Shown: positions 56,437 through 64,000 of the stretch, one piece after another
Layout: the number at the start of each line of letters is the position of its first letter
Position numbering within the stretch: the stretch's first letter is position 1
IMG/VR virus record: IMGVR_UViG_3300009506_000022
Coordinates: 34,007-98,006 of that record
Strand: one strand, 5' to 3'
Length of the DNA stretch: 64,000 bases
From: a virus
Notes under the pieces: generated by a model
Database searches by the model: none
Seen by the model: only the letters and a program-made list of their open reading frames with translations
Told to the model about the DNA's origin: nothing
Position numbers and translations under genes: made by a program

Positions 56437-57882
56437 GTGCGACTGCTGCTTGATAACCAGAATATCTATCTGGAAGATGTTCCAAAGAAGATAATCAAAA
56501 TCCTTTCTAGGCGATTTAGTTATCGAGTTGCTGGAGCTCGATATGTGACATCGTTTCAATCTGGAAGCTGGGATGGACGCAAACACTTGATATCTATGTT
56601 GGCGGATGGTCGACTTCGAGCGCCAGCCGGAATCGCTCATGAGATCGCAACCACCATAACAGAGAATGGTTGCGATTTTGATTTTTTGGATGCAAGGCGA
56701 TACTCAGATGAGCGTTTTGATTTCGAGTTCGATAAATCGATTGTTCTTCGCCCATATCAACTGGAAGCGGTTGAACTTCTAAGCAATCCATTAGCTCCTT
56801 TGGATATCCGCGGTCGAGGAATCATCAAGTTACCACCTCGAGCTGGGAAAACCCTGATTGGAGCCGCTGTGATTGCGCGCTTTGGGGTGCGAACCCTCTT
56901 TGTTGTTCCAGCTCAGTTTCTTTTACATCAATCGATAAACGCGATTTCAAAGGCGTTAGGAACAGAAGTGGGATTTATCGGTGAAGGGTCTTGGAAACCC
57001 GGGCCCATAACGGTTACCACAATTCAGAGTTTGCTGGCCAAAAGAAATGGTGGGACAAAAGCGAATCCGCCAGAACCAGAATACATAAAGCTTATGCAGT
57101 CATGCGAACTCGTGATCGTCGATGAACACCACCACATGGAAGGCGAGATGTGGAGGAAGGTTATCCAGGATTCGCAAGCACCCTTTAAGGTGGGGTTGAG
57201 CGCAACGGTGTTTCTTGATCATCAGAAAGAATGTGAGCTTGGTGTTATATGGCTACACGCGATTGCTGGCGACATCCTTCTTGATATTTCTGTTAGCGAT
57301 TTGATTGAACAAGGGTACCTTGTCAGACCAGATATTTGGGTTTGTCCCATTCGCGATCCTGTCTTTCCTAAAAATCGAGGGTGGTCACAAAACTTACAAA
57401 AACAAGCGATCTATGAAAACGAACATCGTAACAATCGGATTGTTGAGTTTGCGGTAATGCTTGTGAAAGAGAAGAAGAGACCAGTCATCATCTCAAACCG
57501 CCATTCCCAAGTATTTGCGTTGCAGGATAAACTAGAATCAGCTGGATTGTCCGTTGGCCAGATCATCGGACAGACGAAGCGAGCCAAAAGAGAATCGATT
57601 GTAGAGGCGTTTAGGCGGCGTAAAATCGATATTCTTCTTGGCACTATTTTTGGCGAAGGGGTGGATATTCCAGAAATTGACAGCGTTATCGTAGCAGAAG
57701 GTGGTTCTGGGGTGAAACAAACCTACCAGAGGTTGCGGTGTATGACTCCTTGTGAGGGAAAAGAAAAAGCTGTGGTTATCGATTTCATGGATTTGACTCA
57801 TCCATACTTTGCGCGACACTCGATAGAGCGATTGGGGGTCTATGAATCGGAACGCGCATTTCGCATAAAAATCGTTGAATAG
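56437..57882 (+). CDS. SF2 DEAD/DEAH-type helicase (UvsW-like)
   Basis: 481 residues. An N-terminal 100-residue domain (YLEDVPKKIIKILSRRFSYR, SGSWDGRKHL) as in UvsW-like proteins, then the helicase core: Q-like VLRPYQLEAVELL, motif I LPPRAGKTLIGAA (about 132-144), motif II VIVDEHHHM (DEHH at 229), motif III GLSATVF, motif V FGEGVDIPEIDSVIV and motif VI QTYQRLRC. These enzymes remodel replication forks or R-loops. GTG start; AGGA only 2 nt upstream, so possibly a weak or leaderless start. Confidence 0.9.
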   Translation: MRLLLDNQNIYLEDVPKKIIKILSRRFSYRVAGARYVTSFQSGSWDGRKHLISMLADGRLRAPAGIAHEIATTITENGCDFDFLDARRYSDERFDFEFDKSIVLRPYQLEAVELLSNPLAPLDIRGRGIIKLPPRAGKTLIGAAVIARFGVRTLFVVPAQFLLHQSINAISKALGTEVGFIGEGSWKPGPITVTTIQSLLAKRNGGTKANPPEPEYIKLMQSCELVIVDEHHHMEGEMWRKVIQDSQAPFKVGLSATVFLDHQKECELGVIWLHAIAGDILLDISVSDLIEQGYLVRPDIWVCPIRDPVFPKNRGWSQNLQKQAIYENEHRNNRIVEFAVMLVKEKKRPVIISNRHSQVFALQDKLESAGLSVGQIIGQTKRAKRESIVEAFRRRKIDILLGTIFGEGVDIPEIDSVIVAEGGSGVKQTYQRLRCMTPCEGKEKAVVIDFMDLTHPYFARHSIERLGVYESERAFRIKIVE

Positions 57883-58111: not shown

Positions 58112-58420
58112 ATGCGAGAAAAAGAGAAAGAGGCGCCGGAAGGGATTACGATTACGGAAGCGTATAACCAATTGCCGCGAACTGCTTTTGCTTTATGGAT
58201 TAGGATGGCTGTGCATCCCATACATGAGCTCGAGACATTGGGAATGTATAAGCTAGCAAAACAGTTCGGATATTCTCGCAGAACGTTTTACGATCAAGTC
58301 CAGGTTCTACGAAACTTTGGCTACATTCGATACGCCACAGTTCATGGTAGAGCGTCTCAGATCCGCCTGACAAAACGGCCACTTTTGGTTGGGGTAGATC
58401 AGTTTATCAAATTGTCTTGA
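58112..58420 (+). CDS. winged-helix DNA-binding-like protein (102 aa)
   Basis: ATG at 58112 with no good ribosome site. HTH features: LPRTAFALWIRMAVHP then YKLAKQFGYSRRTFYDQVQV and a wing-like FGYIRYATVHGRASQIRL. It could be a replication accessory or a regulator; placed 4 nt before the initiator gene. A long structured leader precedes it. Confidence 0.7.
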   Translation: MREKEKEAPEGITITEAYNQLPRTAFALWIRMAVHPIHELETLGMYKLAKQFGYSRRTFYDQVQVLRNFGYIRYATVHGRASQIRLTKRPLLVGVDQFIKLS

Positions 58421-58424
58421 ATAC

Positions 58425-59804
58425 ATGACAAGAGAAAAAAAAGAGAGACGATATAGAAAGATCCGCGTTGGGTTATGGACGGATTCGCGCTACAGATCTT
58501 TACCAAAAACAGAGCCAAGCGCACGTCATCTCTATTGGTTTTTGAGAACTGGACCGCACACAACAATGATTCCAGGTGTGTTTCAAGCTCGAGCTCCAGG
58601 TCTTGCTGATGAACTTGGGTGGGAGACCCAAGAGTTCAAAACATGTTTTGAAGAGTTGATTGAAAGCCAACTTGCTTTTGCTGATTGGGATGAAGGCCTT
58701 GTTTTTCTTCCAGACGTAATTGTCGATGAGCAACCTCGTTCTGTAAATCAGATCGAAGGTTGGCGTATTTTTTGGTTAGAATTTCCTAGCTGCGATCTAA
58801 AAAAACGCATCCACAGACACTTCGATGAATATTTCAAAAAAGGACCAAGGTCATATTTATCAATATTTCTCGACATTTTTGGAAGAATTGATAACGAATC
58901 AAAAAAGAAACAAGAAAGAACACAATTGTGCGATGACACTTCTCTTGAAAGAACAACCAATTTCGTTCAGGAAGAAACGAAAAAGAAATCGGGTTTAACA
59001 GTTAACAGTAAACAGTTAACAGTAAACAGTGAGTACTCTAACGAGTTTATACACACAAGAAATCAAAAAGAATCGATAACGAAACAAGAAAGAACACAAT
59101 TGTGTAGCAACACTAATGAACAAGTTGTTCGAGGAAGGAAATTGGATCCCTCGGCTTTGAGAAAAAAGAAGAATGAAGCGAACAAAAAAAAGAAGGGGTT
59201 GAATAAAAAAGGAAAGGAAACCATTCATCTTCCTGATAGCGATCTGTTTTGTTTGCCAGAAAAAGAAAAGCAAAAGATTCTTGATTTGTTGGAATCAAAA
59301 AACGATGAGGATGAAAAAAAGAGACGATTTTATCTCGATGAGCTTCAACAACTGGTTTTAGATGCTTATAGCGTTGCGAAGAAAAATCATACTGGGAATG
59401 GTTATCATAGGCTTGGTAAACATGGCAAAGAAGCGGCTCGAAAAATTGGCATTGGGTGCCTAGCATATAATCTGACACCTAAAGATTTGATTGTTTATTG
59501 GGCGAAAAATCATTGGACAAAAATGAGTTTTCCAACACTTCTTTTTGTTTCTAGCGAAAAAAATATAGAAACGGCTGCTGCTGAACTTTCGGGTTCTAAT
59601 AGAAAAAAGAAAGGATACGTTCCAGTCAATGAAAGATTTGAAGATGATTCTGTCGACGATTTCGAAGAATTACAACTTCTTGCCGAAAAAAGAGATCGAG
59701 AAGTTAGAGAAGCAAAAACAGAGAGAACAGAGAATGGAGCGGCTGGAAAGATCGGGGATACTAAACGTATTACCCGAGGACGACGTAAAAATGCTGGTAA
59801 CTAA
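58425..59804 (+). CDS. replication initiator protein
   Basis: 459 residues. The N-terminal 130 residues (YRKIRVGLWTDSRYRSLPKT, ARHLYWFLRTGPHTT, LADELGWETQEFKTCFEELI, ADWDEGLVFLPDVIVDEQ) match N-terminal domains of phage replication initiators that bind the origin. A low-complexity, Lys/Asn-rich middle (about 165-270) is encoded by iteron DNA. A helical C-terminus could bind the helicase loader, whose gene overlaps the 3' end. The layout parallels lambda O. Confidence 0.8.
   Translation: MTREKKERRYRKIRVGLWTDSRYRSLPKTEPSARHLYWFLRTGPHTTMIPGVFQARAPGLADELGWETQEFKTCFEELIESQLAFADWDEGLVFLPDVIVDEQPRSVNQIEGWRIFWLEFPSCDLKKRIHRHFDEYFKKGPRSYLSIFLDIFGRIDNESKKKQERTQLCDDTSLERTTNFVQEETKKKSGLTVNSKQLTVNSEYSNEFIHTRNQKESITKQERTQLCSNTNEQVVRGRKLDPSALRKKKNEANKKKKGLNKKGKETIHLPDSDLFCLPEKEKQKILDLLESKNDEDEKKRRFYLDELQQLVLDAYSVAKKNHTGNGYHRLGKHGKEAARKIGIGCLAYNLTPKDLIVYWAKNHWTKMSFPTLLFVSSEKNIETAAAELSGSNRKKKGYVPVNERFEDDSVDDFEELQLLAEKRDREVREAKTERTENGAAGKIGDTKRITRGRRKNAGN
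58886..59104. other. probable replication origin inside initiator gene
   Basis: Two direct repeats (58886-58931 and 59070-59104) share a 24-nt identical core ending in the palindrome CACAATTGTG, and flank five tandem 7-bp iterons (58997-59031). The whole stretch is AT-rich and codes for the low-complexity middle of the initiator. This is the arrangement of lambda-type origins; function is inferred. Confidence 0.7.
58997..59031 (+). repeat. five tandem 7-bp iterons
   Basis: AACAGTT AACAGTA AACAGTT AACAGTA AACAGTG run without gaps. Alternately viewed as a 14-bp unit repeated 2.4 times. Translated, they give two copies of LTVNS. Iterons are usual binding sites for an initiator protein. Confidence 0.92.
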
Positions 59805-60246
59805 CGAAACAAAAAAATGGAAGCCAATTGTTGTTGTGGAAATGTGGCTGAAGACAGATTTTCCTTTTTTGGTTTTGCTTGGTGTTTCTGGGGGTGGAAA
59901 AACTGTAGCTTCTGGATACATGATTTCTATGGTTGGTGGACTCTATGTTCATACGAGAAGTATGGAGCGTTATTTCGCGTCTAGTTTTGGAGAACCTTTA
60001 GATAAACAGCAAAGCATAAAAATGGCTCGATACGCTGTGATTGATGATCTTGATACAGAAGATAATCACGAGAAATTTCAAGGCGCGCTTTATGAAGTGA
60101 TTGATTCACGCCAAAGCAAAAAAACGATTCTTACTAGCAATTTGAACAGAAAGGGGTTTAATGAGGTTTATAATGATGTTCGTCTACAACGTAGACTGGA
60201 GCGAGCAAAGTTTGTGGTTGTGAAGGATGTCAACAAGAAGTCATAA
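59734..60246 (+). CDS. DnaC-like helicase loader ATPase
   Basis: 170 residues from ATG 59734; other starts at 59629 and 59791 are possible and the overlap with the initiator varies accordingly. 59734 keeps the RLERSGIL segment that typically begins such loaders. AAA+ motifs: Walker A LLGVSGGGKT (about 48-57), Walker B YAVIDDLDTED, sensor 1 KTILTSNLN and an arginine-rich VRLQRRLERA with putative arginine fingers. It would load the replicative helicase at the origin. Partner of the upstream initiator, like lambda P beside O. Confidence 0.85.
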   Translation: MERLERSGILNVLPEDDVKMLVTNETKKWKPIVVVEMWLKTDFPFLVLLGVSGGGKTVASGYMISMVGGLYVHTRSMERYFASSFGEPLDKQQSIKMARYAVIDDLDTEDNHEKFQGALYEVIDSRQSKKTILTSNLNRKGFNEVYNDVRLQRRLERAKFVVVKDVNKKS

Positions 60247-62525: not shown

Positions 62526-63019
62526 GTAAAAGAGTGATAAAAACAGAGGGTGGAGAAACCATATCTCTTTCTGGTCAGAAAAAGAAGCTTTGTGGGTGTG
62601 GGAGACCAGCAACTCGATATTGCGATTTTCCAAGATACGGAATGTTATCTGGAACCATTGATCGTGAAACTGGAAGGATCGCTTCTGTTGGTCAACATAC
62701 AACAGTGTTATGTGCAAAACCTTTATGCGATCAATGCACGGTTGAACAACCAAACGATAAGGATTTTTGCTATCAACACTCGCAACAACTGAAGCGAATG
62801 ATAGAAAGTGCAAACTCTTTTGAGCCAGATTATCAGGCGGTTCAGAAAGGCGACAAAGATAGAGAGCTGGAGGAACTTATTCGGTGTTCGAATACATCGA
62901 TTTGTAACTGCGAACATTGTTGTGAAATGTTCAAGTTACATGGTGGTGGGTTTTGTGATGAGCATAGAGAAAAAGCAAATCAGATCTTGGAATATTTGAA
63001 AGGGTTAGATGCCAAATAA
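62522..63019 (+). CDS. cysteine/histidine-rich zinc-binding protein (165 aa)
   Basis: Several metal-ligand groups: CGCGRPATRYC, CAKPLCDQC, CYQH and CNCEHCCEMF ... FCDEH. Probably two zinc sites or treble clefs. DNA-binding or adaptor role possible. Overlaps the previous gene and the polymerase start. Confidence 0.68.
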   Translation: MSKRVIKTEGGETISLSGQKKKLCGCGRPATRYCDFPRYGMLSGTIDRETGRIASVGQHTTVLCAKPLCDQCTVEQPNDKDFCYQHSQQLKRMIESANSFEPDYQAVQKGDKDRELEELIRCSNTSICNCEHCCEMFKLHGGGFCDEHREKANQILEYLKGLDAK

Positions 63020-63455
63020 ACCAAAAGAGGATTTTGTTCATCTACACTGCCATAGCGATATGAGTCAGCTTGATGGTTGCGCGCGCGTAGAGGAATATGT
63101 GAAAGCTGCGGCTGAACGTGGGGCTCCAGCTGTAGCGCTTACGGATCATGGAACTATGAGGGGTGCTTACGAGCTTGCAAAGCAATGCAAAAAATATGGC
63201 GTGAAACCGATATTTGGGATTGAGTTCTATGTTTGTGATGACATGCATCTAAAAGGAACTGGAAAGAAGAGGAGAAAGAAAGGGGAAGAAGAGCAAGAAA
63301 GTCTTTTCAAGACAGATTTGTCAACTCTAGAAGAGAAAGCATCATCGCGAAAAACGACACATCTAACAGCATGGGCTTTGGATAACGAGGGTTTGAAAAA
63401 CTTATATCGATTGAAGGATATTACTATCGTCCAAGGATCGATCTGGATACTTTGA
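63009..63455 (+). CDS. dnaE: DNA polymerase III alpha-type (DnaE), N-terminal part
   Basis: The start of a DnaE-family polymerase: PHP domain with FVHLHCHSDMSQLDG (metal-binding His11, His13, His15), ALTDHGTMRGAYEL, GVKPIFGIEFYVCDD and HLTAWALDNEGLKNLYRL. A Lys/Glu-rich insert (about 80-115) is unusual. The frame then stops at 63455, while the PHP sequence resumes in the -1 frame near 63410, so the gene carries a frameshift. Confidence 0.85.
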   Translation: MPNKPKEDFVHLHCHSDMSQLDGCARVEEYVKAAAERGAPAVALTDHGTMRGAYELAKQCKKYGVKPIFGIEFYVCDDMHLKGTGKKRRKKGEEEQESLFKTDLSTLEEKASSRKTTHLTAWALDNEGLKNLYRLKDITIVQGSIWIL

Positions 63456-64000
63456 TCGAACATAACAAAGGGATTGCGGTTGGTTCTGGGTGTGCTGGTT
63501 CTGTGTTGAACGATGCTGTGTTGAAAAAGGATAAACCTCGTCTCGATACAGTGATGGGAAAGCTTGTAGATACGTTTGGCAATCGTTTTTATATCGAGTT
63601 TATGCCTCATATCTTAGAGAATAAAGAACAAATTAGATGTAACGAATACGCATCTGATATTGCAGATTTGCTTCAAAATAAATCCATTCCGATTGCAACT
63701 CAAGATGCTCATTATTTAGAATATGATGCAACAGAACATCACAACGTCTTGTTGGCAATGCAAACACAGGATGTTTTGAGCAACAAAGAAAGGTTTGCTT
63801 TTAGCCAAGAGCCATTTGATTTCAAAACAAGCGATGAGATGAGAACGTTGTTTTTGGAGAATCATCGATGGATTGGCGAAAAGTATATTCAAAGATTACT
63901 TCATGGAACGCTTCATCTTGCTGAAAGATGTACAGCGGAAATAGAAATAGATCCGCTGAAAGGGTTGCTTCCAAAGGTTGAGGTTCCAGAGATTCATCGA
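63386..64000 (+). CDS. dnaE: DnaE continuation in shifted frame, cut by window end
   Basis: This open frame has no start codon of its own and continues the polymerase: IEGYYYRPRIDLDTLIEHNK, GIAVGSGCAGSVLND, GNRFYIEFMPHILENKEQ, PIATQDAHYLEYDATEHHN and SDEMRTLFLEN match the rest of the PHP region. Relative to cellular DnaE about 5-8 residues are missing at the junction, so the break is a short deletion plus frame change. It may be an assembly error or a genuine mutation. The frame is open to the end of the window. Confidence 0.82.

Follow-up and report, generated by a model that had tools for sequence, protein, structure and literature searches.

A probable replication origin within a phage initiator gene, with phased repeats and a short tandem tract in the linker

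Genes at the locus

A gene for a replication initiator of 459 amino acids lies on the + strand at 58425–59804 of the window (the whole stretch of 64,000 nt that was analysed). It was assigned from its open reading frame and from profile matches of its N-terminal domain, and a putative origin is situated in its linker. The surrounding genes are on the same strand. Upstream are a UvsW/DEAD-like helicase gene, which belongs to the replication gene block (56437–57882; phrog_16, E = 2.5e-61), and, just before the initiator, a gene for a small helix-turn-helix-like protein (58112–58420; weak HTH_36/HTH_11 matches, E~0.04). A DnaC-like helicase-loader gene is found directly downstream (59629–60246; phrog_50/3277, E = 1e-14 for phrog_50), its coordinates being those of the longest ORF, so that the true start may be further inside. 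The order of initiator and loader is that of an oriLambda-type origin and agrees with a preliminary description of this DNA.

The N-terminal domain (58425–58904, + strand) was matched to the profiles of two initiator-like families, phrog_25711 (E = 1.4e-10) and phrog_1701 ('DnaD-like helicase loader'; E = 4.9e-9). Its AlphaFold2 model is confident (pLDDT 86.5), with an order of elements like that of a winged helix. The best viral structure match was a 'Replisome organizer' (E = 9.6e-10), and the PDB structure matches were weak and to winged-helix regulators (best wHTH E = 0.016). The initiator is accordingly described here as a predicted winged-helix protein. No match was obtained in a Pfam search with the protein, a PDB sequence search returned designed proteins only and single-protein searches of viral contigs gave no close relative of the initiator or the loader. 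Relatives of the initiator were reached through profile and pattern searches only. Using tblastn, the initiator was matched to the 'DNA replication protein O' of Citrobacter phage Chris1 and to the 'primosomal protein' of Actinobacillus phage pPE4.

The window is the final part of a 98,006-base record. Both ends of the record lie inside one DnaE-like DNA polymerase gene (window 63009–64000 and record positions 31–1263), with the PHP domain at the record end and the C-terminal HHH_6 part at the record start; the reading frame of this gene shifts near 63440. Because both ends share the gene, the contig is probably a permuted, nearly complete genome. GC skew was positive over all 98 kb, its sign apparently tracking the common gene direction, and an origin call from skew was not possible and was dropped. 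A skew minimum elsewhere had been proposed as grounds for rejecting an origin at this locus; with no minimum anywhere in the record, the check is uninformative either way.

Repeats in the initiator linker

The linker carries a repeat array, as in oriLambda-type origins. Five gapless AACAGTN heptads (N = T, A, T, A, G) occupy 58997–59031 on the + strand and are read below as a putative unwinding/loading tract; they sit in a slot that relatives fill with (CAGGAA)n or (AACAGTN)n. The purine-rich run CAGGAAGAAACGAAAAAGAAATC (58968–58990, + strand) leads into them and would, by comparison with the relatives, start the tract module. Direct repeats at 58883–58930 and 59057–59104, aligned without gaps at 85% identity, flank the heptads. 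Each ends in the palindrome CACAATTGTG, which has two sites in the window (58921 and 59095; 0.08 expected). The preliminary description had placed five gapless heptads between imperfect direct repeats ending in this palindrome and had the heptads encode a repeated peptide; all of this was confirmed, with direct repeats of ~46 nt and LTVNSKQLTVNS as the peptide. The five heptads in succession (T, A, T, A, G) read LTVNSKQLTVNSE. From the sequence itself, an in-frame TAA stop would result from a T in the third unit, and coding therefore limits the variation of the heptads.

The repeats are unusual for this DNA. AACAGTNAACAGT occurs once in the window (0 expected, 100 shuffles) and a three-unit heptad array is found at one site only in the whole 98-kb record. 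The lag-7 periodicity is significant under codon shuffling (p = 5e-4), and the longest exact repeat of the linker is 24 nt, compared with 15 nt or less in 500 codon shuffles. The 219-bp repeat stretch has a GC content of 32%, below 99% of equal-sized windows (lowest 0.8% of the record), so that on GC content alone the adjacent low-GC tract of an oriLambda-type origin is present.

Both direct repeats can be divided into units of about 11 bp, and on the strength of this repetition and of a lag-11 match they were taken as iteron candidates. Array 1 (58888–58930, + strand) consists of units A (TTGATAACGAA, 58888–58898), B (TCAAAAAAGAA, 58899–58909), C (ACAAGAAAGAA, 58910–58920) and D (CACAATTGTG, 58921–58930). 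Array 2 (59063–59104, + strand) shares these units in the order B' (TCAAAAAGAA, 59063–59072), A' (TCGATAACGAA, 59073–59083), C' (ACAAGAAAGAA, 59084–59094) and D' (CACAATTGTG, 59095–59104), with the first two swapped. On comparison of the codon phases, A was in phase 1 in the first copy and 0 in the second and B in phase 0 and 2, C and D being unchanged. The swap together with the changed phase favours a role at the DNA level for at least unit A. The lag-11 match in the window is of modest significance (p = 0.003; 0.03 over lags 8–19) and the DNA is A-rich. Separately, GATAACGAA, a 9-mer of unit A, has two further sites in the window, at 1057 and 22617 (four found, 0.66 expected).

Iterons and tract in related initiators

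Relatives were fetched by protein similarity and not by repeat content, giving two non-redundant sets: O-like initiators (n = 49) and the RI family (n = 63). The RI family consists of 'RIRTxKPEFW' initiators from phrog_1408/16167, which carry one of three annotations: primosomal protein, replication initiation protein or RepA-like initiator. A short-tandem-repeat tract was present in the linker of 47 of the 49 O-like and 57 of the 63 RI genes, compared with 1–2 codon-shuffled genes, and in the downstream DNA of 0/49 and 1/62. The regular expression for the tract was composed after examples had been viewed; no such tuning entered the purine-window and lag statistics. The purine content of the richest 36-nt segment was 0.94 and 0.83 in the two families (0.78 and 0.75 when shuffled).

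Across both families the tract units were CAGGAA, CAGGGAA, CAGGGGAA, GGAAA or AACAGTN. The units counted were AACAGG (19), AGCAGG (7), AAACAGT (4) and AAGCAGT (4) in the O-like set, with AACAGTT found once, and AAAGG (22), AACAGGG (13), AAGGG (9) and AGGGATC (8) in the RI set. AACAG-type heptads were present in the linker of 15/49 O-like and 15/63 RI genes, and nearly all of the others had an equivalent tract of other units. Phased iterons lie directly 5' of the tract, after the N-terminal domain, with a lag of exactly 11 (RI) or 12 (O-like) among lags of 8–15; in the RI family the gap from iterons to tract is mostly 2–32 bp. The comparison with related phages that had been proposed as a check thus came out in favour of an in-gene origin, nearly all homologous initiators having iterons and a repeat tract at this position. 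The window linker likewise has the tract, with 11-bp units of modest significance on both sides of it.

A constraint at the protein level might account for such repeats, a low-complexity hydrophilic linker (QEQE, LTVNS) being selected and the DNA repeats being a by-product. The O-like genes fit this, since their 12-bp iterons and (CAGGAA)n are codon multiples and one phase is used in 41/47. The RI genes argue the other way: their lag is 11 bp and each of the three codon phases is used for tract starts (25/20/12), so that a fixed peptide cannot be the source; window units A and B also recur in different frames. We consider the protein-level explanation highly improbable.

The preliminary description regarded the AACAGTN units themselves as iterons bound by the N-terminal domain of the initiator, which would leave the flanking repeats as accessory. 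Five regular gapless repeats within an initiator gene, forming the sole array of the record, speak for this. In the relatives, however, AACAG-type units accompany divergent initiators and host groups, units of 5, 6 or 8 bp replace the heptads in the same slot and separate 11- or 12-bp repeats precede it; a 7-bp spacing would also place successive sites on different faces of the helix. The slot after ATGCCTAATCAG is instructive, with (CAGGAA)n (ATGCCTAATCAGGAACAGGAACAGG) in one sequence (L342) and AACAGTN heptads (ATGCCTAATCAGTTAACAGTTAACAGT) in another (L345). This exact replacement indicates that the heptads stand in for the tract and not for the iterons. Heptads acting as iterons are thus distinctly unlikely, and of the proposed lambda-like origin the in-gene layout was retained, backed by the relatives, while the assignment of AACAGTN as the bound sites was not.

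RI-type initiators were afterwards read in eleven further named phages; the majority diverge more than the 49- and 63-member sets do. The linkers of Panchino, BigNuz and Bjanes7 (mycobacterial and Gordonia phages) contain (GGGGAACA)n octamers, that of Ididsumtinwong CAGGGAA units, that of Tyrion (near members of the first set) GGATCAG heptads and that of Mx8 GGAGAT units. CTGATTC heptads, of strand sense opposite to the purine tracts, were found in LESphi2, IFTN8 and yong1, and the reading of the tract was ambiguous in Dewey and a Vibrio phage (2/11). A short tandem tract is, as judged from these sequences, common in RI-type initiators, and its strand is not universal.

AACAGTN heptads in other genomes

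Exact matches to the 34-nt array were found in Komarekiella (Nostocales) and in Chloroflexi, Ignavibacteria and Chitinophagaceae MAGs (L018–L021, respectively), in which three-unit matches numbered 410, 88, 17 and 19. By these counts, the AACAGTN sequence belongs to a known type of dispersed repeat. Heptamers scattered in this way have been reported in bacterial genomes, where heptamers are the commonest SSR class and slippage has been hypothesized (PMC4679880, PMC4692102). Among the matches listed from a blind scan of viral contigs, the distinct AACAG heptad arrays with a sense orientation in a plausible gene were in initiator linkers in about half of cases or more (hand count), and about half of the viral heptad arrays listed fell outside long ORFs. 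Arrays in frame in uncultured-phage genes such as portal, scaffold, endolysin, DNA methylase, ATPase and primase were also seen (L104, L100/L140, L135, L142, L125, L134, L073 and L080; gene names by inspection).

These observations suit an account in which the heptads arose by slippage or by capture of a dispersed STRR-like repeat, are tolerated in a flexible linker and have no function in an origin; the Nostocales counts, the prevalence of heptamers among bacterial SSRs and the arrays in portal, endolysin and methylase genes all speak for it. The window array does share the tandem AACAGTN unit with STRR-like repeats. The many dispersed arrays are not seen, the phage having one in 98 kb, and most relatives conserve the slot directly 3' of phased iterons, other members filling it with an equivalent tract of different units. 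Capture of an STRR-like repeat alone was the first idea and was demoted to a rival in view of this conservation; we now judge such heptads without origin function to be rather unlikely. Slippage and selection may both have acted, with slippage providing the units and selection maintaining the slot.

Proposed origin and mechanism

The stretch at 58888–59104 is best read as the phage replication origin, located inside the initiator gene and working through iterons and a melting tract; we give this reading a probability of roughly 0.7. It is drawn from the unique repeats, the low GC content, the gene order and the iterons-plus-tract layout conserved in relatives, which together give good support to a lambda-like origin within the gene. 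The heptads are probably an unwinding/loading tract and not initiator-bound iterons, since relatives have CAGGAA, CAGGGAA or GGAAA in the corresponding slot and separate iterons of 11 or 12 bp immediately 5' of it. The iteron candidates of the window are probably the flanking direct repeats, split into 11-bp units; this two-sided layout around the heptads is the least certain part of the model.

Binding, melting, helicase loading and the division of jobs among the repeats are inferred by analogy with the lambda and RK2/F origins. Initiator dimers would bind phased repeats, for which the two 11-bp-unit arrays that each end in CACAATTGTG are the probable sites in the window, and would bend the DNA. 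The adjoining A/purine-rich tract, with the five AACAGTN heptads as its core, would then melt and one of its strands would be kept as single-stranded DNA, onto which the DnaC-like loader from the next gene would place the helicase.

Several observations count against the model. The window repeats flank the heptads on both sides, whereas the iterons of relatives are on one side only; AACAGTN heptamers are mostly non-origin dispersed repeats in other genomes and occur also in non-replication phage genes; the CTGATTC repeat of LESphi2, IFTN8 and yong1 is on the opposite strand; and the 11-bp phasing in the window is modest in A-rich DNA, with no support from GC skew.

CAG is the majority C-triplet in 42/47 RI tracts, in every phase (share elsewhere 23%), and is present in 44/63 RI tracts compared with 31/63 after shuffling. 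Many unrelated tailed-phage initiators might share one origin module, in which a strand-specific tandem tract of 5–8-bp units, often with the core AACAG (CTG opposite), follows phased iterons. The CAG/CTG could be start sites for host primase or a common register in which the initiator or loader binds the single strand, and the dispersed heptamers of cyanobacteria and other bacteria could exchange with such origins. Escherichia coli DnaG primase starts on template CTG (PMC5429622). This generalization is doubtful as a whole, and the primase-site idea is speculative and not universal because ~30% of RI tracts are without CAG.

If the origin model is correct, the origins of most phages with such initiators could be read from sequence (linker, 11- or 12-bp iterons, tandem tract), in enterobacterial, Pseudomonas, mycobacterial, Gordonia, Streptomyces and many uncultured phages. 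For the RepA-type initiators of mycobacteriophages, a cis-acting site has only been presumed in or beside repA (PMC7157519). The model also offers a concrete test of the job of the short tandem tract.

Comparison with known systems

The locus resembles oriLambda in gene O (lambda and the Stx phages P27 and 933W) in having its putative origin midway within the initiator gene, a loader gene downstream and an A/purine-rich low-GC tract after the repeats. In the lambda origin sequence, four iterons are followed by a tract that is 73% purine on the coding strand and 22% GC, and lambda O binds the iterons and, as single-stranded DNA, the tract (PMC7466680). The lambda iterons differ in being 18-bp dyads spaced by 20–24 bp on one side of the tract, the window having 11-bp units on both sides of 7-bp repeats, and sequence homology between the window initiator and lambda O is not detectable (initiator family profile A3, score -1.0).

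Closer in protein sequence are gene O of Chris1 and the primosomal gene of pPE4. Their N-terminal domains are homologous to that of the window initiator (~32% identity), a loader or P-like gene comes next and degenerate AACAG heptads (AGCAGTTAGCAGTAAACAG and ATAACAGATAACAGAT) stand just after the N-terminal domain; they differ in having iterons of the KAFDK type, 12 bp long, to the 5' side, and the window gene is longer and A-rich. The RI family has phased iterons and a short-tandem-repeat tract in the linker, often with a DnaC-like gene downstream, but its 11-bp iterons are of other sequences and its tract units are GGAAA, CAGGGAA and CAGGGGAA.

Plasmid RK2 oriV and F oriS also combine a winged-helix initiator with iterons beside an unwinding element of short repeats, and the RK2/F Rep proteins bind the iterons and one strand of the unwinding-element repeats (PMC4081077). 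In these plasmids the origin is outside the rep gene and the unwinding repeats are 13-mers or 8-mers. The dispersed heptamers (Calothrix STRR, Beggiatoaceae TAACTGA) have the same unit length of 7, and Nostocales share AACAGTN itself; they form hundreds of mostly scattered arrays per genome, whereas the window phage has one, at a conserved position in the gene.
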